This document shows positions 8,240 through 17,613 of a DNA stretch of 64,000 nucleotides, in pieces. Numbering within the stretch: the first letter of the stretch is position 1; every line of letters begins with the position of its first letter. The translations under genes were made by a program, and so were the position numbers. Location of the stretch: assembly GCF_000973105.1 (NCBI RefSeq), contig NC_015844.1, positions 620,001 to 684,000 of the forward strand. Reading direction: 5' to 3'. This DNA is from Zobellia galactanivorans. GTDB taxonomy: Bacteria > Bacteroidota > Bacteroidia > Flavobacteriales > Flavobacteriaceae. The notes under the pieces are model-generated. The model searched no databases. It saw only the letters and a program-made list of their open reading frames with translations, and was not told the DNA's origin.

Positions 8240-10063
8240 TTGGAACCCTTTATTGTATCGGCACGTAAATATAGACCCCAGACATTTAGGGATGTTGTGG
8301 GACAACAGGCCATTACCAATACCCTCACCAATGCCATTGAACACAATCATTTGGCACAGGCCCTTTTATTCTGTGGCCCTAGGGGAGTTGGTAAAACTAC
8401 CTGTGCGCGTATTTTGGCCAAACAGATCAATTCAGATGGTACCGAACGTGAAGGTGAAGATTTTGCCTTCAATATTTTTGAGCTCGATGCCGCTTCGAAC
8501 AACTCGGTAGACGATATCCGTAACCTTATCGACCAGGTACGTATCCCGCCCCAAGTCGGCAAATACAAAGTATATATCATCGATGAGGTGCATATGCTCT
8601 CGCAATCGGCTTTCAACGCTTTTCTAAAAACCCTGGAAGAGCCACCAAAACACGCCATTTTCATTTTGGCGACCACAGAGAAGCACAAAATTATACCTAC
8701 GATACTTTCGCGTTGTCAAATTTTTGATTTCAAGCGAATTACCGTCAAAGACGCCGCCGAATACCTAAAATACATAGCCGAAAACCAAGGCATTGTTGCA
8801 GATGACGACGCCTTGCACATTATAGCCCAAAAAGCGGACGGTGCCATGAGGGACGCCCTCTCCATTTTTGACAGGGTCGTTAGTTTTTCAGGAAAGGAAT
8901 TGACGAGAAAAGCCGTTACAGAGAACCTTAACGTTCTTGACTACGACACCTATTTCTCGGCAACCGATTTGATTTTAGAACACAACATTCCCCAATTATT
9001 GCTTTTGTTCAACAAAACCTTGTCACTAGGTTTTGACGGCCATCACTTTATCAGTGGCCTTGCTTCGCATTTCAGGGACCTTATGGTATGTCAGCACCAA
9101 GACACCATAAACCTGCTAGAAGTTGGCGACGTAGCCAAACAGAACTATCTAGAGCAATCAAAGAAGACCTCTAACCGCTTCCTATTGCAAGCCTTGAACA
9201 TTGCCAACGATTGCGACCTCAAGTACAAGACCAGTAAGAACCAGCGGCTGCTGGTAGAACTTACCCTGATGAAATTAGCCTCTATTGATTTTGAGGCTGA
9301 AAAAAAAAATTCTGAACACGACATCTTAACAGGCCCTAGCCCTGACTTTATCGCTCCCGCTTCTTTTTTTAAGGGGAACAATGCCCTACAAAAAAAACCA
9401 AAGGAAAGCACCGCCCAAGAACAATCGCCAGCAGCGCCCCCTACCCCCGTAGAAGCAAAGAACAAGGAAGAGCAAACCCATTATCGGCCCCAAGAAAGCC
9501 CGAAAGAAGTTCCGAGTTCGGATGCTGTGGTAGAACCCAAGCCCGAAACCGAACCCCAACCGGAAACACCTCCGATAAAAAAACTCAATATCGGTGGCGG
9601 CAAAAGGGTATCAGGACTCTCCCTTTCAAGCTTAAAGATCAAAAAAGAGCACGAGCTAAGCCGAAAAGACGAGACCATTGACGAAAGTAAGCTACCCAAA
9701 GACCCATTTACCGAAGAGGAAATGCAGAAGCACTGGGCCGATTTTGTCGATAAAATCGATTTGGAGGGCAAGAAAATATTAGCTTCCAACCTCAATGCCG
9801 ATGTACCGAAACTGCTTCAAGAAAAAACCATTTGGATCGAGCTTCCCAACGGCACTATGAAAAAGGAGATTGAGCGAGAGCAATACGACCTGATGGAGTA
9901 TCTGAGAAAAAAACTCAACAACTACTTTATTGAACTAAAAATAACCGTAAACGAAACCGTAGCCAAAAAGTTCGCGTTTACCCCAGAAGAAAAATATCAA
10001 AAATTACGGGAGAAAAACCCCGCCATAGATTTGCTGCGCCAAACTTTTGACCTAGACCTTTAA
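8240..10063 (+). CDS. dnaX: DNA polymerase III subunit gamma/tau
   Basis: This 607-residue clamp-loader ATPase has Walker A GPRGVGKTT at residues 46-54, Walker B VYIIDEVHMLS, the sensor/SRC region ILATTEKHKIIPTILSRCQ, and a long tau-like tail rich in Pro, Glu and Lys after residue 350. The start is TTG at 8240; it gives MEPFIVSARKYRPQTF, the expected N-terminus, and no ATG fits. The usual four-cysteine zinc module between Walker A and the DAAS motif is absent and replaced by an acidic stretch (SDGTEREGEDFAFN). The last 12 bases overlap the convergent TMEM220 gene. I see no obvious slippery A-run that would produce gamma by frameshifting. Confidence 0.95.
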   Translation: MEPFIVSARKYRPQTFRDVVGQQAITNTLTNAIEHNHLAQALLFCGPRGVGKTTCARILAKQINSDGTEREGEDFAFNIFELDAASNNSVDDIRNLIDQVRIPPQVGKYKVYIIDEVHMLSQSAFNAFLKTLEEPPKHAIFILATTEKHKIIPTILSRCQIFDFKRITVKDAAEYLKYIAENQGIVADDDALHIIAQKADGAMRDALSIFDRVVSFSGKELTRKAVTENLNVLDYDTYFSATDLILEHNIPQLLLLFNKTLSLGFDGHHFISGLASHFRDLMVCQHQDTINLLEVGDVAKQNYLEQSKKTSNRFLLQALNIANDCDLKYKTSKNQRLLVELTLMKLASIDFEAEKKNSEHDILTGPSPDFIAPASFFKGNNALQKKPKESTAQEQSPAAPPTPVEAKNKEEQTHYRPQESPKEVPSSDAVVEPKPETEPQPETPPIKKLNIGGGKRVSGLSLSSLKIKKEHELSRKDETIDESKLPKDPFTEEEMQKHWADFVDKIDLEGKKILASNLNADVPKLLQEKTIWIELPNGTMKKEIEREQYDLMEYLRKKLNNYFIELKITVNETVAKKFAFTPEEKYQKLREKNPAIDLLRQTFDLDL

Positions 10064-10414
10064 TCGTCTTTTTACATACCGTTCACGCCACATATAAGTG
10101 AACATAACCAAGGCCACAATCAGTAGACCACAAGCTTCCCGGCCTCTTTCAATATTTTCGATATTACCTTCACCAATGGTAAAACCTTCAAATTTTTCGG
10201 GCCAAGAAACAATGGCTCCTATCAAATAAAGCATTCCCAAGACAGCCGCCACGGAAAATTTCAACCTATCCATAGCGAACAATAGCGAAGCTATCGCGGC
10301 AAGGCCATAAATACCATACCATAAAAAGGCATCGGGGTCGTTATTCTGAACATAGGCCGACCATAGAAACAAGGCCGTAAACACAAAGCCCAGTAGTTTA
10401 AAAAAATACCTCAT
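10052..10414 (-). CDS. TMEM220-type transmembrane protein at the end of the ebo operon
   Basis: This 120-residue protein has about four membrane segments and an ASVQNN-like motif, SAYVQNNDPDAFLWYGIYG, near residues 19-37. That motif is the signature of the TMEM220 family. The C-terminus is basic (RERYVKRRLKV) and likely cytoplasmic. Its ATG overlaps the eboF stop by four bases, so it is translated with the ebo genes and may be a seventh part of that system. Its 3' end overlaps dnaX by 12 bases. Family function is unknown. Confidence 0.78.
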   Translation of the reverse strand: MRYFFKLLGFVFTALFLWSAYVQNNDPDAFLWYGIYGLAAIASLLFAMDRLKFSVAAVLGMLYLIGAIVSWPEKFEGFTIGEGNIENIERGREACGLLIVALVMFTYMWRERYVKRRLKV

Positions 10415-11790
10415 ATATCTTCGGTTACATGGTTTTTTAAGATCTGGTATACATCGGTCGCTTCAATAGCATCGTCGAAAGTAGCGTTGATCTGATCGGT
10501 AACCAAAATAGGAAAATCAGCCTTATCTTCCGGAATCCTACCATGCGACCCCTTTACCAAGGTGGCATCCAAGGGTATAATGTTCATTACCGTCCTGAAT
10601 CCCAATTTCTTCTTCAATAATTTACCGATAACCTTGGCCATCACCAATTTATCCTTAGGGTCCGTCAACATTTCCACTGGATCATAACCCGGTTTTTTAT
10701 GAATATCCACCATACGCGCATAGTCGGGAGCCTTAGCATCATCTAACCAAAAATAGTAGGTAAACCATGAGTCCGCATCGGCCACAACCACAAGGTCTCC
10801 ACAACGTTCATGTTGTAAATTGACCTTTTGCAATTCTTCCCCTGTCAATACCATTTCTACCCCCGAAACCGACTCCAACAAAGCCTTAACTTCCAACTTT
10901 ACCGAAGGGTCGTTCAAATAAACATGGGCTATTTGGTGGTCCGCTACCGCAAAGGCCTTGCTCTGCCCGGCATCCAACAACTCCAATCCGCGTTCTTCCC
11001 GTATGGCGATATAGCCTTTGGAACGCAGGATCCTGTTCAAATGAATAGGATTGCTCACATCGGTAATACCATATTCAGATAGCAATACAATACGTGCATT
11101 GCGCTGTTGAAAATGCGTCACCAACTGCTCCACCACCCCATCTATTTCCTTAAGGTCCTTTTTGATCTTGGTAAAATCAAGGCCGTGACGTTGCAAATTG
11201 TAATCTAAATGTGGAAGGTAAACCAATGACAGGGTCGGGTTATGCATCTCATCGGTACGTATGGCTGCATCGGCAATCCATTTACTCGATTTAATGGAAG
11301 TTTTCGGCCCCCAAAATTGGAATAAAGGGAAGGTACCCAACTCTTCCTGCAAGGTATCCCTCAGTTCAGGGGGATACGAATACACATCGGGAATCTTTCG
11401 CCCATCCGCCAAGTAATTGGGCCGTGGCGTTAAACTATAATCTACATTAGAGTACATATTATACCACCAGAAATGGTTGGCACAGGTAAAATGTTCATCT
11501 TCCCTTTTTAACTCGTCCCAAAGCTTTTCGCTCTGCACCAATTTATTCGATTGACGCCAGAATTTCACCTCGCATTCCTCTTTAAAATACCAGCCATTCC
11601 CCACTACACCGTGTTCAGACGGGGTTTTCCCGGTCAGATAGGTAGACTGGACCGAACAAGTTACCGCTGGTAAAACAGGACTGATATAGGCCGACTTGCC
11701 TTTTTTTAAAAAAGACTCAATAAAGGGGGTATGCTCCCCGATAAGACGTTGGGTAAGACCCACAACATTGATCACTAGCGTTTTTTTCAT
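10411..11790 (-). CDS. eboF: Ebo cluster alkaline-phosphatase-superfamily protein EboF
   Basis: This 459-residue protein is of the type I phosphodiesterase/nucleotide pyrophosphatase group. The N-terminal metal site begins VINVVGLT. The nucleophile threonine is expected in SPVLPAVTCSVQSTYLTG, and further ligands are in YLPHLDYNLQ, LLSEYGITDV and LVKGSHGRIPED. It lacks a signal peptide, so it should act in the cytoplasm. It follows eboE by three bases and overlaps the TMEM220 gene by four. In ebo clusters this gene accompanies a prenyltransferase and a sugar-phosphate cyclase homologue, so it may hydrolyse a phosphodiester or pyrophosphate of the shared metabolite. That substrate is unknown. 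Confidence 0.85.
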   Translation of the reverse strand: MKKTLVINVVGLTQRLIGEHTPFIESFLKKGKSAYISPVLPAVTCSVQSTYLTGKTPSEHGVVGNGWYFKEECEVKFWRQSNKLVQSEKLWDELKREDEHFTCANHFWWYNMYSNVDYSLTPRPNYLADGRKIPDVYSYPPELRDTLQEELGTFPLFQFWGPKTSIKSSKWIADAAIRTDEMHNPTLSLVYLPHLDYNLQRHGLDFTKIKKDLKEIDGVVEQLVTHFQQRNARIVLLSEYGITDVSNPIHLNRILRSKGYIAIREERGLELLDAGQSKAFAVADHQIAHVYLNDPSVKLEVKALLESVSGVEMVLTGEELQKVNLQHERCGDLVVVADADSWFTYYFWLDDAKAPDYARMVDIHKKPGYDPVEMLTDPKDKLVMAKVIGKLLKKKLGFRTVMNIIPLDATLVKGSHGRIPEDKADFPILVTDQINATFDDAIEATDVYQILKNHVTEDI

Positions 11791-11793
11791 CTT

Positions 11794-12987
11794 CTAAAAC
11801 TTTTCTACAAACCAATCGATTTCCCTAATGATAGACTCTGAAAGGTCTTTTTTTAAAGCTGCCGGAAGCACATCCCAAGTATAGGTCTCTATTTCCAAAT
11901 GTTCTGAAACGGGATGCTTCTTTACATACTCCATCACCTTTAGAATATGGTCTTGGGTCGAATCCAACGCACCAAAACGTTCTAAAAATATAGGCACATG
12001 AAAATGCGCCCGCAATTCTTGAAATTCCTTTTTATCCTTAAGAACAATAGGTAGGTCGTTATAGGTCACCACCTTTCCCCCAATTTTCTCGGTAACCTGA
12101 TGGAGATAGGTAGGCTCATCAAAAAGCGTCAAAGCCTTCCATATTTCATCGTTCCCCGAAGGGTTCGACAGAATCTTCAAAGCGGCACTTACCTGTATTT
12201 TCCCGATAACTATTCCCGCTTCAGCGAATTTTTCAAAGGTATCGGTCGGCTCCTCAAAAGCCAATGAAAAATGACAGATATCGTAGCATACGGTTAGGTG
12301 ACGACGTATCATTTTTTCGGCCGTTTCCACATCGACCCCGAGCTTTTCGACAATTACCGATGTACCGATAGGCAAAAGATAATCTGCAAAAAAGCCTAGC
12401 ACCTCGTCACTGTTCTCCAACATTCCGTCGGGCTCAGGTTCTATATCAAGATGCAAATATTTTCCGGTCTGCCGCTCTATTTCATTGAGATGCATGGCCA
12501 CCTCTATCATATTTTTCGCCCCGGTTTCAAAAGCCGATTTCACAGCGTCTTCCGTAGCATGCCAATATTTATAACTAACGGGAGAAGTGGAAATTCCCCC
12601 AGAAATACCATCAGGAAGCAAGGCCGCCAACTGATCGAACATTCGTTTGGTATAGGTGAGGCGTTCCGGTGTCGTCCAATCGGGCGCATGAACATCGTCT
12701 TTGACCCGCTCGTTATGAAAGTTCCCATAAGGAAAACCGTTCATGGTAAAAACATATACCTGGTTTTCGGCCATCCATTGCTTAAACTCCTCTAGGTTTC
12801 CATCCATATCGAGCTCCTCACTCGCCTTATTAGACAACCGTAAGCCCAAGCCAAAAGGCTTATCGGGAGACACTTTGCCCCTTATCTGTGGAACGTGTTC
12901 TTTAAGACTATCAAAAGTGGTCTTCCAATCGAATCCGGGATGGATATTGGTACAATACGTAAGTTGAAAATTATTATCTATGCGCAA
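11794..12987 (-). CDS. eboE: Ebo cluster metabolite traffic protein EboE (TIM barrel)
   Basis: This 397-residue protein looks like a xylose-isomerase-like TIM barrel. It has LTYCTNIHPG near the start, YVFTMNGFPYGNFHNERVK near residues 78-96, LHLDIEPEPDG near residue 178, and CYDICHFSLAFEEP near residue 235, which carry the Glu, Asp and His residues of a metal centre. These segments identify EboE of ebo clusters. It lies one base downstream of eboD and three bases upstream of eboF. The reaction is not known; the fold suggests isomerisation or epimerisation of a sugar-like compound. Confidence 0.87.
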   Translation of the reverse strand: MRIDNNFQLTYCTNIHPGFDWKTTFDSLKEHVPQIRGKVSPDKPFGLGLRLSNKASEELDMDGNLEEFKQWMAENQVYVFTMNGFPYGNFHNERVKDDVHAPDWTTPERLTYTKRMFDQLAALLPDGISGGISTSPVSYKYWHATEDAVKSAFETGAKNMIEVAMHLNEIERQTGKYLHLDIEPEPDGMLENSDEVLGFFADYLLPIGTSVIVEKLGVDVETAEKMIRRHLTVCYDICHFSLAFEEPTDTFEKFAEAGIVIGKIQVSAALKILSNPSGNDEIWKALTLFDEPTYLHQVTEKIGGKVVTYNDLPIVLKDKKEFQELRAHFHVPIFLERFGALDSTQDHILKVMEYVKKHPVSEHLEIETYTWDVLPAALKKDLSESIIREIDWFVEKF

Positions 12988-12988
12988 G

Positions 12989-14149
12989 CTACTCTACTTT
13001 AAGTTTAGAAATTTCGTTTACTACGTCCAATGCTTTTTTCATGACCTCCCGGTCAATTTCATGAACGTCGTGTTTTACACCGATATCCGAAATCAGGGTA
13101 ATCGTAAGCACACCGCCCAAGTGTTCCCTAAATTCCTCAATTCCGTTAAGCAGTTCGTCTACCTCCTTCGCGGAAGCCAACGGAAAACTCAAGTCGAAAC
13201 CAATGTTCTGAAAGACGCGTACAATGCGGTTTAAGTCGGCTTCGTTTATCAGACCGATCAAATGGGCATAAGCCACATCCAAAACAATACCTTTTGCAAC
13301 GGCCTCACCGTGGCGAAGCGCGTAATTGGTCATATATTCCAATTTATGGGCCGCCCAATGTCCGAAATCAAGAGGTCGGGACGATCCGCTTTCAAAAGGA
13401 TCCCCTCCTTGGGCGATATGGTGCATATGCATTTCGGCACACCTATAAATGGTATATTGCATGGCTTCCATATTTCTATCGCGCAAGAGGTGTGCGTTTT
13501 TCTCTAAGTATTCAAAAAAGACGGCATCTTTGATCAATGCCACTTTTAAGGCTTCAGAAATACCGGCGATCCAATCGCGTTGCTCTAAAGTCTTAAGGAA
13601 GTCCGTATCGTTAATAATAGCATAAGGAGGCGCAAAGGTTCCTATAAAATTCTTCTTTCCGAAGGCATTTACGCTATTCTTTACCCCCACGGCAGAATCA
13701 TCTTGGGAAAGCACGGTCGTTGGTATTCGAATCAATTTCACCCCTCTATGCGCTATAGCAGCGGCATATCCCGTCATATCAATAACGGCACCCCCACCTA
13801 TAACCACAACAAAAGAATGGCGGCAAATGGCATACTCACTAACGGCCTTTAGAATATCTTCGACCTGACCTTGATCGTTCTTACACGCCTCGCCCCCTTG
13901 AACCACCATACTTTTCATATGCACCAAGTTTTCTTGGTAGTTCTGGCAGTAGGTCTCTATGCTCTTTACAAGTTGTGGATGGGCAAGCGCTACGCCATCA
14001 TCAATTACAAAAAGCAGTTTTACGGGCTCGTTTTTGTATTCTTTTATAATATCCCTGAACAGGGTATTCGTAGTCCCAAAAAGGTTTTCTGTAAAATAGA
14101 GGCCATATCGATAGGAAACCTCAAACTTCTGCTCTATAGTTTTAAACAT
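12989..14149 (-). CDS. eboD: Ebo cluster 3-dehydroquinate synthase homologue EboD
   Basis: This is a sugar-phosphate cyclase family protein. The start at 14149 gives 386 residues beginning MFKTIEQKFEVSYRYGLYFT; the frame is open further upstream, but that extension has no family likeness and would run into eboC. Motifs are VVIGGGAVIDMTGYAAA (NAD site), RIPTTVLSQDDSAVGVKNSV, GISEALKVALIKD, and metal-site histidines in LDFGHWAAHKLE and LRHGEAVAKG. Compared with AroB, the His-rich region reads GHWAAH rather than GHTFGH. It is therefore a divergent cyclase, nearer the 2-epi-5-epi-valiolone synthase type, and not the housekeeping shikimate enzyme. Product unknown. Confidence 0.87.
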   Translation of the reverse strand: MFKTIEQKFEVSYRYGLYFTENLFGTTNTLFRDIIKEYKNEPVKLLFVIDDGVALAHPQLVKSIETYCQNYQENLVHMKSMVVQGGEACKNDQGQVEDILKAVSEYAICRHSFVVVIGGGAVIDMTGYAAAIAHRGVKLIRIPTTVLSQDDSAVGVKNSVNAFGKKNFIGTFAPPYAIINDTDFLKTLEQRDWIAGISEALKVALIKDAVFFEYLEKNAHLLRDRNMEAMQYTIYRCAEMHMHHIAQGGDPFESGSSRPLDFGHWAAHKLEYMTNYALRHGEAVAKGIVLDVAYAHLIGLINEADLNRIVRVFQNIGFDLSFPLASAKEVDELLNGIEEFREHLGGVLTITLISDIGVKHDVHEIDREVMKKALDVVNEISKLKVE

Positions 14150-14183
14150 TGTATTTCTTTTGAACGTCAATAATAAATTGACC

Positions 14184-15086
14184 TTAGGTAACGGCAAATA
14201 ATTTAGACAAGCCCATTGAAACGGGCAGTAATGCCAATATGCACAATCCGTACCACCAATCGGAAAATGCAACGGCGATAGATGAATCGAGTAAAATTAG
14301 CGCTATGACTCCCGCCATAACGGCTTTTTTGATATTCTCGGGAGAGTTAACGGTATATGCCTTTATCAAAGGCCTAAAAACCGTGAACGCAAACAATACC
14401 AAAAACAATAACGGAAATATACGGGCATCCGTATACAAAAAGGCTATGGATGCCACAGCCAAAACAACCGTAGCATAAAGCACGCCTGCCAATACGATAT
14501 GGTTTTTGTTTTTTCCGTGTACTTCCCCCCTACTTATGAGGGTAATGGCAAATATATAAACGATAGGGATGAGGGCCATAAACCAATAATCGAAGTTGCC
14601 CAGAACGGACATACCCAACAGCAAGTTTACCCCCCTGCATAGCCCCATACTCAAGGGCCCGAAGAAATCATATCTTTTAGCGACCGCATCGTATAGCAAA
14701 ATGGCCAAAGCCAGTGCCAAGGCTACGATACCCGACAGCTGGGAAACCAAAAAGGCCAGTCCTACGCCGATGGTCAAAGTAAGCCCTCCATATATGGCGG
14801 CCGAACGCAATGGCACTACACCACTAGGTATAGGCCGTTCGGGCCGTTCGACCTTATCGAGTTTAAAATCAAAAACATCGTTAAGGATTACCCCTCCGGC
14901 ATAAAGAAAGACGGACGAGAATACCAAATACACGACATTCAGGAAAACACTAGACCCTATAAAATCGCTTTGAACACCCCCTACAAAAACACCCCCAATA
15001 GCCACACCGGCCAATATATCGGCCGCGGCCGTAGGCAAATTAGCTGGTCTTGCCAAGCGAGCATAGCCAAGAAACGTGCGATTCAT
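14184..15086 (-). CDS. eboC: Ebo cluster UbiA-type prenyltransferase EboC
   Basis: This 300-residue integral membrane protein has about eight to nine hydrophobic segments. The aspartate-rich prenyl-diphosphate site of the UbiA family is NDVFDFKLDKVERPERPI (about residues 89-106). The N-terminus is LGYARLARPANLPTAAADI, another family signature. The UbiA family joins isoprenoid chains to aromatic or sugar acceptors in the membrane. In the ebo cluster, EboC is the only clear membrane enzyme and is thought to attach a lipid carrier to the metabolite. It shares one base with the end of eboB; eboD begins 34 bases downstream. Confidence 0.88.
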   Translation of the reverse strand: MNRTFLGYARLARPANLPTAAADILAGVAIGGVFVGGVQSDFIGSSVFLNVVYLVFSSVFLYAGGVILNDVFDFKLDKVERPERPIPSGVVPLRSAAIYGGLTLTIGVGLAFLVSQLSGIVALALALAILLYDAVAKRYDFFGPLSMGLCRGVNLLLGMSVLGNFDYWFMALIPIVYIFAITLISRGEVHGKNKNHIVLAGVLYATVVLAVASIAFLYTDARIFPLLFLVLFAFTVFRPLIKAYTVNSPENIKKAVMAGVIALILLDSSIAVAFSDWWYGLCILALLPVSMGLSKLFAVT

Positions 15087-15994
15087 TATGTAATCTGGTC
15101 TGAATCTATTCGAGGTTCTTGCCCCCTCAAAACGCTATTATCATTAAAAAGCTGGGCCTGATTGATTCCCTTAGGGTTCAACCAATGCTCTTCCTTCATT
15201 TTACCATTGGAACCAAAGATATCCAAGGCATTTTGGTAGCAAGTCTTTACCACGTCCTCACGGGCTATACCTCTTTTCAACATAAGGTTAGCGGTCTTCG
15301 GTACGGCCAAAGGATCACTAACGCCCCAATCTGCAGAGCTATCGACAATAATATTGTCACTGCCATATTTTTTAACCACCTCTACCATGCGTTCATTGCC
15401 CATTTTGGTTTTGGGGTAAATGGTAAACGCAGCGATAAAACCTCTATCAAGCACATCTTTTACGGTTTCTTCGTTGTTATGGTCAATAACCACCTTAGAG
15501 GGATCAAGGCCATGTTCCAAACAAACCTCCATACTTTTTAACGTACCGGCTTTTTTATCACGGTGTGGCGTATGTACCTGAACGACCATACCCAGTTCTT
15601 TGGCCATTTCCAATTGCAGGCGAAAATACTTGTCTTCTGCCGGGGTTTGATCGTCATAACCGATTTCACCAATAGCCACCACATTTTGCTTATGTACATA
15701 CAAGGGCAAAAGCTCTATGACCTGTTCTGCCAAGGCCTCGTTATTGGCCTCTTTTGAATTCAGCCCTATGGTGCAATAATGTTGAATACCAAATTGGCTT
15801 GCCCTAAAAGGCTCCCAACCGACCAGGCTACTGTAATAATCTTGAAAAGAGCCTACTTGTGTTCTTGGTTGGCCCAACCAGAACGAAGGTTCTATTATAG
15901 CCACTACTCCGGCCGCGGCCATAGCTTCATAATCATCAGTAGTCCGCGATGACATATGCACATGCGGGTCGATTATCATCATTTTATCTTCCAT
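15086..15994 (-). CDS. eboB: Ebo cluster TatD-like metal-dependent hydrolase EboB
   Basis: This 302-residue protein has the TatD/amidohydrolase layout: IIDPHVHMSS near residue 8 (H-x-H metal pair), AIGEIGYDD near residue 106, VQVHTPHRDKK near residue 138, VVIDHNNEETV near residue 168 and VDSSADWG near residue 217 (final Asp). These are the positions of a binuclear metal centre. It starts two bases after eboA ends and shares its last base with eboC. Hydrolysis of an unknown ebo metabolite is likely. It is distinct from the DNase TatD by its ebo context and divergent middle part. Confidence 0.86.
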   Translation of the reverse strand: MEDKMMIIDPHVHMSSRTTDDYEAMAAAGVVAIIEPSFWLGQPRTQVGSFQDYYSSLVGWEPFRASQFGIQHYCTIGLNSKEANNEALAEQVIELLPLYVHKQNVVAIGEIGYDDQTPAEDKYFRLQLEMAKELGMVVQVHTPHRDKKAGTLKSMEVCLEHGLDPSKVVIDHNNEETVKDVLDRGFIAAFTIYPKTKMGNERMVEVVKKYGSDNIIVDSSADWGVSDPLAVPKTANLMLKRGIAREDVVKTCYQNALDIFGSNGKMKEEHWLNPKGINQAQLFNDNSVLRGQEPRIDSDQIT

Positions 15995-15995
15995 A

Positions 15996-16853
15996 TTAAG
16001 CTTTTATATTATTCCAGGTAATTTTTTCATTCGCCACTTCTGACTGCAATTGAGGGTAGTGTGCCAATAATTCTTTGGCCTTCGGCACTTCGGAATTATA
16101 ACAACACAGTGCCGCCACCTTGTTTTCTACAGGATTGTCACTTGTGAACAGGCCTTGCATATCCTTTAGGAGATTGTCGTCTAAAAATGCCGCTACAGGC
16201 CTCCAGAACAAGGGTTCGATTTCTCGGGAAGCCGCCCATCGTTCATGGGCATAATCCGATATAATACGGGCCAAATCTTTATTGGCACGCTCATCAATAC
16301 TCAAAATATTGGAAAGATCCAATTGCATAAAAGCCGCTTTCAAGTACATTTGGTTCCATTGCTGATCGTTGAAGTATTTTGCAGGATAGGGGTTCTGCAT
16401 GCTAATAGCCTCAAAAATCGTAGCTATATTGGTTCGCAAAGCCTCCACTGCCGTTTGCTTGTAGTTTTCGGCGTCGGGCAAAAGCATCAAATACTTTAAA
16501 AACGTCTCGAGTTCGCCCGTATCGGCCACCTGAATCAGGTTGGCCACTTTTGGCGTAAAAAAAGCAGCATCGGCTTTCAGCACCTCTATCAAGAGATAGA
16601 TTCTCGCTATCTCTAGGGTGCTTGCATTTTGTGTTCGCAGATACGCGGTTACTTCATCGGTATCGGAGCCCAGTTGCAAAGCTTTGTTCGCATCTATTTT
16701 ACTGGCCAATAAACTATAGGTCATATAAAGTTCCTTAGCGGAACTCGAACCTACAATTAACTCTAACTTTGAATGTAACCATGATTTCGTTTCAGGGTCT
16801 AGATTGCTATTCAGCAAAGACCTTAGTCCTTGGTCTAATTTGGTAAATTTCAT
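15996..16853 (-). CDS. eboA: EboA domain-containing protein
   Basis: The start at 16853 (MKFTKLDQGLRSLL) gives 285 residues and is preferred to an upstream in-frame Met. The protein is mostly helical, with no signal peptide or membrane segment. It contains KIDANKALQL, ARIYLLIEVLKAD and, in the C-terminal part, ERWAASREIEPLFWRPVAAF followed by KVAALCCYNSEVPKAKEL, the characteristic EboA stretch that resembles HEAT-like helical repeats. It leads the operon; eboB starts two bases after its stop. EboA has no known enzymatic activity and may be an assembly or scaffold protein for the cluster. Confidence 0.87.
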   Translation of the reverse strand: MKFTKLDQGLRSLLNSNLDPETKSWLHSKLELIVGSSSAKELYMTYSLLASKIDANKALQLGSDTDEVTAYLRTQNASTLEIARIYLLIEVLKADAAFFTPKVANLIQVADTGELETFLKYLMLLPDAENYKQTAVEALRTNIATIFEAISMQNPYPAKYFNDQQWNQMYLKAAFMQLDLSNILSIDERANKDLARIISDYAHERWAASREIEPLFWRPVAAFLDDNLLKDMQGLFTSDNPVENKVAALCCYNSEVPKAKELLAHYPQLQSEVANEKITWNNIKA

Positions 16854-16933
16854 AATCTGTTTTTCGGGTTTCTTGACAAGTGGTAACAACCCTGTTCTTT
16901 ATGTGATTTGGCTCCATAAAAAACAACTAATCA

Positions 16934-16941
16934 CAAAACTA
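16934..16941 (-). promoter_or_regulatory. -7 promoter element of the ebo operon
   Basis: On the minus strand this reads TAGTTTTG, matching TAnnTTTG. The predicted start of transcription is near 16928, giving a leader of about 75 bases before eboA. It lies in the 178-base gap between divergent eboA and miaE. A -33 element is not clear. Confidence 0.5.
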
Positions 16942-17031: not shown

Positions 17032-17613
17032 ATGCTAGGCCTAAAGCTACCGACCGACCCAAGATGGGTGAATATTGTTGAGAAAAATATCGATGAAATA
17101 CTGACCGACCATGCCTATTGCGAACAAAAGGCAGCGAGCACGGCCATATCGTTGATCATAGGTTTTCCCGAATATACCGAATTGGTAGAAGAAATGATCG
17201 CACTTTCCCGCGAAGAGATGGCCCACTTTAAAATGGTACACGACCGCATTATTGCCCGTGGCCAGGTTTTGGGTCGCGACAGAAAGGACGAATATGTGAA
17301 TAAATTGACGCAATTTTTCCCAAAAGGAGGTAGTCGTACCCATCAATTGGTACACCGGCTTTTATATGCCGCCTTGATAGAAGCCCGAAGTTGCGAACGT
17401 TTCAGGTTGCTTTCCGAAGAACTCGAAGACAAGGAACTGGCCGAGTTTTATCACAAATTAATGGTAAGCGAAGCCGGCCACTATACGATGTTCCTTAAAT
17501 TTGCACGTCAATACGGTGACCGTGCCGAAGTTGACCAAAAATGGCAGGCCCTATTAGATTACGAAGCCGAGATTATGAAAGACCTCGGAAAAAAAGAAAG
17601 TATCCACGGTTAA
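17032..17613 (+). CDS. miaE: tRNA-(ms2io6A37)-hydroxylase
   Basis: This 193-residue di-iron protein matches MiaE, which hydroxylates the isopentenyl side chain of 2-methylthio-N6-isopentenyladenosine at tRNA position 37. Iron ligands are visible as EQKAAS near residue 31, SREEMAHFKMVHDRI (E-x2-H) near residue 66, EARSCERF near residue 121 and SEAGHYTMF (E-x2-H) near residue 152. The length and N-terminus, MLGLKLPTDPRWVNI, match the family. It is divergent from eboA and ends at a strong terminator. MiaE needs MiaA and MiaB products, which are not in this window. Confidence 0.93.
   Translation: MLGLKLPTDPRWVNIVEKNIDEILTDHAYCEQKAASTAISLIIGFPEYTELVEEMIALSREEMAHFKMVHDRIIARGQVLGRDRKDEYVNKLTQFFPKGGSRTHQLVHRLLYAALIEARSCERFRLLSEELEDKELAEFYHKLMVSEAGHYTMFLKFARQYGDRAEVDQKWQALLDYEAEIMKDLGKKESIHG

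Follow-up and report, generated by a model that had tools for sequence, protein, structure and literature searches.

An ebo Operon With an Attached TMEM220 Gene

We analyzed a 64,000-nucleotide stretch of the Zobellia galactanivorans genome (NCBI RefSeq assembly GCF_000973105.1, contig NC_015844.1, forward-strand positions 620,001 to 684,000; hereafter the window, numbered from its first letter), which lies within a single-contig genome of 5,521,712 bases. Open reading frames and profile searches place eboA to eboF, in that order, on the minus strand at 10411–16889. An earlier note, made from the sequence alone, had claimed a complete and tightly spaced ebo cluster in A–F order, and both points are confirmed: the open reading frames, the NCBIfam equivalog models for EboC and EboE, the EboA domain model and Pfam establish a complete EboA–F cluster in this genome, and the intergenic gaps run from −4 to 3 bases except for the one between eboC and eboD. 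That note gave 10052–16941 as a span of six genes, which holds for eboA–F but left undescribed a co-directional gene inside the span, encoding a TMEM220-family membrane protein (10052–10414, minus strand; PF15071, 89.3 bits, cut-off 27). Overlapping eboF by 4 bases, it is the predicted seventh gene of the operon. The locus is an ordinary Bacteroidota ABCDEF-type ebo operon with an attached TMEM220 gene, forming a block between dnaX and miaE. The cluster itself has already been described; what is added here is the TMEM220 association, the active-site result for EboF, the predicted fold of EboE and sharper guesses at the chemistry.

Gene order and gaps are those of an ABCDEF ebo operon predicted as one unit, all of it on the minus strand. 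The gene eboA (15996–16889) has a TTG start and an in-frame ATG at 16853, and is followed by eboB (15086–15994), which encodes a TatD/amidohydrolase-superfamily metal hydrolase (PF01026, 68.2 bits), and by eboC (14184–15086), encoding a UbiA-superfamily prenyltransferase. A sugar phosphate cyclase superfamily protein (PF01761/PF24621) is encoded by eboD (12989 to about 14149 at its ATG, in an open frame extending to 14272), a xylose-isomerase-like TIM barrel by eboE (11794–12987), and a member of the alkaline phosphatase/phosphodiesterase superfamily with an altered metal site by eboF (10411–11790; PF01663, 212.8 bits). From the TMEM220 end upward the gaps measure −4, 3, 1, 28, −1 and 1 bases, the 28 bases between eboC and eboD becoming 34 if eboD begins at its ATG. 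EboB- or EboF-specific models gave no match in either profile library (Pfam, NCBIfam), and both proteins carry the TatD-like and PF01663 families found in ebo operons.

Upstream of eboA lies a Bacteroidota −7 box (TAGTTTTG, 16934–16941, minus strand, starting at window position 16941), which the earlier note had also pointed out and which is conserved in relatives. Its pattern, TAnnTTTG, was found in 64 of 83 related eboA–miaE intergenic regions, whereas 100 dinucleotide shuffles gave a mean of 13.7 and a maximum of 22; the 83 regions are not independent, since near relatives are included and some genomes are present twice (named and unnamed). The full TTG-N17-23-TAnnTTTG pair, with a −33 TTG, was not found in the window's own eboA upstream region and occurs in only 7 of the 83 (50 shuffles: mean 2.4, maximum 5). 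The seven genes are probably transcribed from one promoter.

Association of TMEM220 With ebo

TMEM220 was found in 29 of 31 EboE-positive genomes versus 14 of 168 EboE-negative ones in the family sample. The corresponding figures are 24 of 31 versus 26 of 364 for the phylum sample and 15 of 18 versus 15 of 152 when genera are counted; in these counts one EboE-negative genome per sample (G079, G280) falls under the curated TMEM220 cut-off and is scored as positive, kinship is handled only by the genus-level table, and genome size is uncorrected. Of the family loci, 24 of 30 have the gene on the same strand as an ebo gene and within 150 bases of it, as do 66 of 80 named loci but only 4 of 28 loci of the phylum sample, including one (L272) from the same family; some loci that have no adjacent TMEM220 are cut by contig ends. 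It mostly follows eboF, as it also does in metagenome-assembled genomes labelled Neomarinimicrobiota (L206 and L207), which have no dnaX flank. Elsewhere it precedes eboA (L031, L033, L034, L045, L257 and L262, the last two outside the set of family loci) or, in a shuffled cluster, eboE (L250).

A tree of 42 TMEM220 sequences nests ebo-less copies from the dnaX locus among ebo-linked copies, and flavobacterial copies 5′ of eboA among unlinked ones; because linked and unlinked copies are nested in each other, the linkage to ebo has changed repeatedly. The protein has about 120 residues and, judged by eye, four helices, and Q23, N25, D26, D28, W32, E89, R92, E93 and G96 are present in 95–100% of 105 sequences. 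A relationship to SMR-type flippases was rejected as homology, hhalign giving 2.3% against PF00893 proteins (controls: EboC 1.2%, shuffled sequences 0.1–0.2%), and is kept as a loose analogy. In the literature covered by our search, no paper was found that pairs TMEM220 with eboA, eboF, eboC or UbiA-297; human TMEM220 is described as poorly characterised, and one screen connected it with the secretion of glycoproteins (PMC6979480). By eye, TMEM220 also occurs, with or without ebo, amid genes resembling those for GFO/IDH/MocA oxidoreductases, GMC oxidoreductases, DUF1080 proteins, sugar isomerases and TonB receptors, the sugar-oxidoreductase-like loci being L031, L034 and L045, from a second Flavobacteriaceae group, and L093, L094 and L098.

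Active Sites and Predicted Folds of the Ebo Proteins

EboD is, by its sequence, not the housekeeping AroB, because aroB lies elsewhere in the genome (G000:C1:5240394-5241395; TIGR01357, 333.5 bits) and several active-site motifs differ. Against TIGR01357, EboD scores 235 bits, under the cut-off of 305. Its best NCBIfam model is NF004852 (PRK06203; 555.6 bits), which is named 3-dehydroquinate (DHQ) synthase, a label that looks like a misnomer for EboD. Across 136 EboD sequences, one of them truncated and many drawn from related genomes (gaps set aside; residue numbers are two more than in the ATG-start protein), R137, D153, K159, K168, N169, E201, K204, H266, H270 and H282 are invariant and align with DHQ synthase residues, so that the metal ligands of the cyclases are kept. 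D263 and H243 are invariant as well; the corresponding columns hold N and K in the AroB of this genome and in solved DHQ synthases, and the KK pair of AroB is replaced by R343 (88%) and an invariant E344, followed by an invariant H345. Two further correspondences were rejected from the alignments: R260 falls one column off the AroB arginine, and H345 adjoins the KK pair rather than occupying the AroB lysine column. Sedoheptulose 7-phosphate (S7P) cyclases such as ValA, which stands outside our alignment, also have an aspartate at the position of D263, a residue that may be one element of an EEVS-type substrate-site fingerprint. In profile and motif, EboD stands apart from AroB as an ebo-operon EboD does. 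A published sugar phosphate cyclase tree places EboD in a clade of its own, and S7P has been predicted as its substrate from phylogeny (PMC5133447).

EboE scores 487.1 bits against its equivalog model NF035939 (cut-off 250) and is 83% identical to EboE of Zobellia russellii, the highest-ranking named match, ahead of one at 71%, in a comparison that may leave out records very near the window. Its AlphaFold2 model is a TIM barrel (pLDDT 93.2) whose predicted fold most resembles those of 3-dehydroshikimate dehydratase and sugar/cyclitol isomerases: the best Foldseek match is AsbF, a 3-dehydroshikimate dehydratase (3dx5; E 1e-7), and the top matches include AsbF, Art22, xylose isomerase, IolI, YcjR and IolE (E 1e-7 to 2e-5). 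A sequence-profile search returned no solved relative, two heat shock factor 1 matches (E 0.19) being taken as chance. E183, E185, D236, H239, Q265, H330, E365 and E367 are invariant in 38 EboE sequences, and because several of them stand at strand ends of the model, a metal site of the usual type is plausible.

In EboF, the residues of the two-metal site are altered (D to V10, H to Q200, D to E239, H to Y240) in all 133 sequences, T44, D196 and H416 being invariant in the same 133; the first six of these columns are backed by aligning EboF with four of its paralogues in this genome, and H416 by a GSHG motif only. The canonical type I phosphodiesterase site (D, T, D, H, D, H, H) is therefore not present. 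The altered ligands count against an ordinary phosphodiesterase activity, and the published view of EboF as a putative hydrolase acting on a substrate that contains phosphate (PMC5133447) is weakened because these metal-site residues have changed. "Phosphodiesterase-like", the wording of the earlier note, remains apt for the family (PF01663) but not for the active site, in which most canonical metal ligands are replaced.

EboC reaches 372.7 bits with its equivalog model NF035940 (cut-off 250), and the 14 other UbiA-type models listed for it all score under their own cut-offs. The DxxDxxxD motif (D70, D73, D77), Y62 and R151 are invariant in 129 EboC sequences, gaps set aside; Y62 and R151 correspond to Tyr56 and Arg145 of UbiA-297 by a constant numbering offset of six, rather than by direct alignment. 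The closest solved relative by sequence is 6m31, a DGGGP synthase. Bacteroidota EboC is not uncharacterised, since homologues from three genera have been assayed (PMC9235831): the enzymes of Maribacter, Zobellia uliginosa and Algoriphagus farnesylate 8-hydroxyquinoline-2-carboxylic acid (8-HQA) in vitro, that of Maribacter also farnesylates quinaldic acid, and 6 of the 14 acceptors offered were accepted, phenols and catechols giving no product. The earlier statement that no metabolite is known for the Bacteroidota cluster consequently holds for a product in vivo but passes over this assayed farnesylation of quinoline acids.

EboA matches the EboA domain model NF035938 at 153 bits (cut-off 50) and scores 165.9 bits with the narrower EboA family NF035937, under its cut-off of 320. 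Its AlphaFold2 model is all helical (pLDDT 94.6), in keeping with the scaffold role suggested in PMC6282210; Foldseek returned no match at E ≤ 0.001 and weak matches that include many HEAT/ARM-type repeats, and we therefore claim only a helical repeat. In EboB, whose closest solved relative by sequence is 3guw, H11, H13, E110, H141, H172 and D222 are invariant in 132 of 132 sequences, leaving the metal motif intact. The outcome that the earlier note had set against its own assignment, an EboD scoring as AroB or an EboC scoring as housekeeping MenA/UbiA with no EboA or EboE match, was not what the profiles returned: EboD fell under the AroB cut-off, EboC passed its equivalog model, and EboA and EboE were matched.

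Distribution and History of the Locus

EboE was detected in 31 of 199 genomes of the family sample and in 31 of 395 genomes (18 of 170 genera) of the phylum sample, and Bacteroidetes is reported as the phylum most represented among ebo carriers (PMC5133447). Same-strand A-B-C-D-E-F order is kept in 29 of 30 family loci and in 82 of 108 further loci (80 named and 28 from the phylum sample), two with a gene in pieces (L159, L271). In L159, from Maribacter litopenaei, eboA, eboF and dnaX are in fragments, suggesting assembly frameshifts or decay. A split layout, with eboC-B-A and eboD-E-F on opposite strands, was seen in L245, L247, L251, L255, L256, L260 and L261, all of family f24. At some loci eboC (L264, L265, L267, L269) or eboA–C (L249, L258) is not present; loss of eboC was rejected for these, all six genomes having an EboC over the cut-off elsewhere. 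The control genome, Haloferax volcanii, gave an EboE model match below the cut-off.

The flanks of the window's operon are dnaX (8240–10063, plus strand), convergent with it, identified by Pfam and syntenic in relatives, and miaE (17032–17613, plus strand; PF06175, 149.6 bits), divergent from it, both outside the operon. Ten neighbouring genes were scanned, of which nine have a Pfam family (helicase, DUF3822, methyltransferase, dnaX, polyphosphate kinase, histidine phosphatase, pyridoxamine oxidase, tRNase Z-like and carbamoyltransferase) and one has no match; no natural-product genes were seen among these ten by Pfam. The exact order miaE, eboA–F, TMEM220, dnaX recurs in 55 of the 108 further loci.

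We compared the locus across the best 30 of 172 genomes with a miaE match, many of which have two miaE-like genes. The genes dnaX and miaE lie within about 20 bases of each other in 8 of these 30 loci, ebo genes adjoin miaE in 2, and dnaX was unrecognised within the 1.5 kb examined in 19; in L107, dnaX-like frames end some 575 bases before miaE. None of the nine genomes with dnaX beside miaE has EboE. TMEM220 stands alone between dnaX and miaE in five loci (L097, L101, L103, L104, L105), and in one genome (G018) the ebo block (L032) is on a different contig from such a dnaX-TMEM220-miaE site (L097), so the ebo block can move without TMEM220. Because of these partial and empty loci, we regard the dnaX–miaE interval as a site where whole or partial ebo blocks are gained or lost. 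Another one-contig genome (G021) has a lone intact eboE between dnaX and miaE (L059:9055-10254), no EboC or EboD over the cut-off and no TMEM220 match; this eboE is either a relic or a case of eboE-only use.

A Proposed Pathway and Its Alternatives

The best explanation of these results as a whole, which we advance tentatively and place somewhat below an even chance, is a pathway to a prenylated ring. EboD would cyclise a C7 sugar phosphate of the sedoheptulose 7-phosphate type, EboE and EboB would dehydrate, isomerise or trim the ring in the cytoplasm, and EboC, acting in the inner membrane, would add a farnesyl-type chain. EboA, as a helical-repeat protein, might hold the enzymes together, EboF might bind rather than hydrolyse a phosphate-bearing partner, or act by some other mechanism, and TMEM220 might help with positioning or moving the product within the membrane. 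By analogy with Nostoc mutants, the prenylated ring could assist small, probably aromatic, metabolites to the periplasm. Dehydration of the ring before prenylation would fit the preference of EboC for aromatic acceptors (PMC9235831). The prenylated cyclitol-like carrier suggested in the earlier note is a published hypothesis (PMC5133447; PMC6282210) and not a new one, to which the EboD residues add limited further support. A narrower joint claim, that TMEM220, with its polar QxND(P)D...W and ExxRE residues, is the missing membrane-handling step for the prenylated product and that EboF is repurposed and non-canonical rather than a phosphodiesterase, is clearly doubtful on the present evidence.

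Several observations weigh against this pathway. No ebo product is known, nor any transport cargo for Bacteroidota; in at least one genome (G368) the profile detects no EboD although the other five ebo genes are there, so that the cyclase is not always needed; both the name of EboD's NCBIfam model and its best solved chains are those of DHQ synthases; and the structural matches of EboE are at the level of the fold only (query TM 0.45–0.52 for the named chains). The only acceptors on which EboC has been assayed are aromatic (PMC9235831), a poor fit to a cyclitol unless EboE or EboB aromatises the ring. In an alternative reading that we consider somewhat unlikely, the operon would yield an end product that is secreted or stays in the membrane, a farnesylated aromatic (quinoline-type or a cyclitol-derived meroterpenoid) serving as deterrent, antioxidant or metal ligand, and the transport defect in Nostoc would be secondary. 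The farnesylation of 8-HQA by three Bacteroidota enzymes, Zobellia included, speaks for it, as do the edibility to nematodes of Pseudomonas with hits in eboA, D and E homologues (PMC6282210) and the ten scanned neighbours, which hold no metabolite pathway needing an export helper. So does the likeness of EboE to AsbF, an enzyme that makes an aromatic acid. However, in the Nostoc study no ebo-specific compound was detected and scytonemin monomer was mislocalised (PMC6282210), 8-HQA was drawn from a panel chosen by the experimenters (PMC9235831), and no quinoline pathway was seen among the ten neighbours. Far less probable still, indeed highly improbable, is that EboD is a second DHQ synthase and the cluster an offshoot of aromatic amino acid synthesis: NCBIfam does give EboD's model that name, the solved chains nearest to EboD are DHQ synthases, which rank before ValA, and most catalytic residues are common to both, but a separate aroB passes the TIGR01357 model that EboD fails, EboD has D263, H243 and E344-H345 where AroB has N, K and KK, and its clade in the published tree is its own.

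It is also rather improbable, to about the same degree as the end-product reading, that TMEM220 is an unrelated resident of the dnaX–miaE interval beside which ebo merely landed. TMEM220 occurs without EboE in 14 family genomes (one under the curated cut-off), and the ebo-less copies at the dnaX locus, known from the five loci above, are nested among ebo-linked ones, from which some independent use or slow decay follows. In the second Flavobacteriaceae group it sits in sugar-oxidoreductase-like clusters with and without ebo, and outside the family it adjoins only 3 of 27 ebo loci. Against a bystander stand the same-strand adjacency at unrelated places, that is 3′ of eboF (66 of 80 named loci, the two labelled Neomarinimicrobiota among them), 5′ of eboA (4 of 30 family loci, L257 and L262) and 5′ of eboE, and the genus-level co-occurrence. 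The linkage is thus partly an effect of the dnaX locus; the association of TMEM220 with ebo is kept because the genes co-occur unlinked across the phylum and other arrangements exist.

The ebo cluster occurs widely. Its published lipid-carrier model relies on a permease taken from a capsule ABC system, the cluster's own membrane step being the prenyltransferase only. By linkage and co-occurrence, TMEM220 is a testable candidate membrane component, and one marine flavobacterial operon holds the whole set. The EboF site and the clues from EboD and EboE narrow the likely chemistry to a putative C7 ring, possibly dehydrated before prenylation.

Comparison With Known ebo Systems

The window shares its six genes, their order and their families with the ABCDEF-type ebo operon of eustigmatophyte plastids and bacteria (Yurchenko 2016, PMC5133447), and differs in the TMEM220 gene after eboF, a family that the main text of that paper does not mention. 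With the cluster of Nostoc punctiforme (Klicki 2018, PMC6282210) it has homologues of eboA, B, C, E and F in common. Each of the single deletions made there (eboA, B, C, E and F) leaves scytonemin monomer in the cytoplasm, and a lipid and cyclitol carrier was proposed (PMC6282210). The Nostoc genes are associated with the scytonemin operon, and eboD lies apart from their main cluster, whereas no metabolite genes were seen among the ten scanned neighbours of the operon in the window. The EDB cluster of Pseudomonas fluorescens NZI7, named for "edible" and not for the edge behaviour given in the earlier note, holds a full ebo cluster like the window, but with additional genes and with homologues of a CPS ABC permease just upstream (PMC6282210), none of which lie among the ten neighbours scanned. 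A further comparison is with UbiA-297/EboC of Maribacter, Z. uliginosa and Algoriphagus (PMC9235831), where the listed genes are eboA–E and the window adds eboF and TMEM220; the prenyltransferase is of the same family, with the same Asp-rich motif and counterparts of Tyr56 and Arg145, and one of the sources, Zobellia, is of the same genus.

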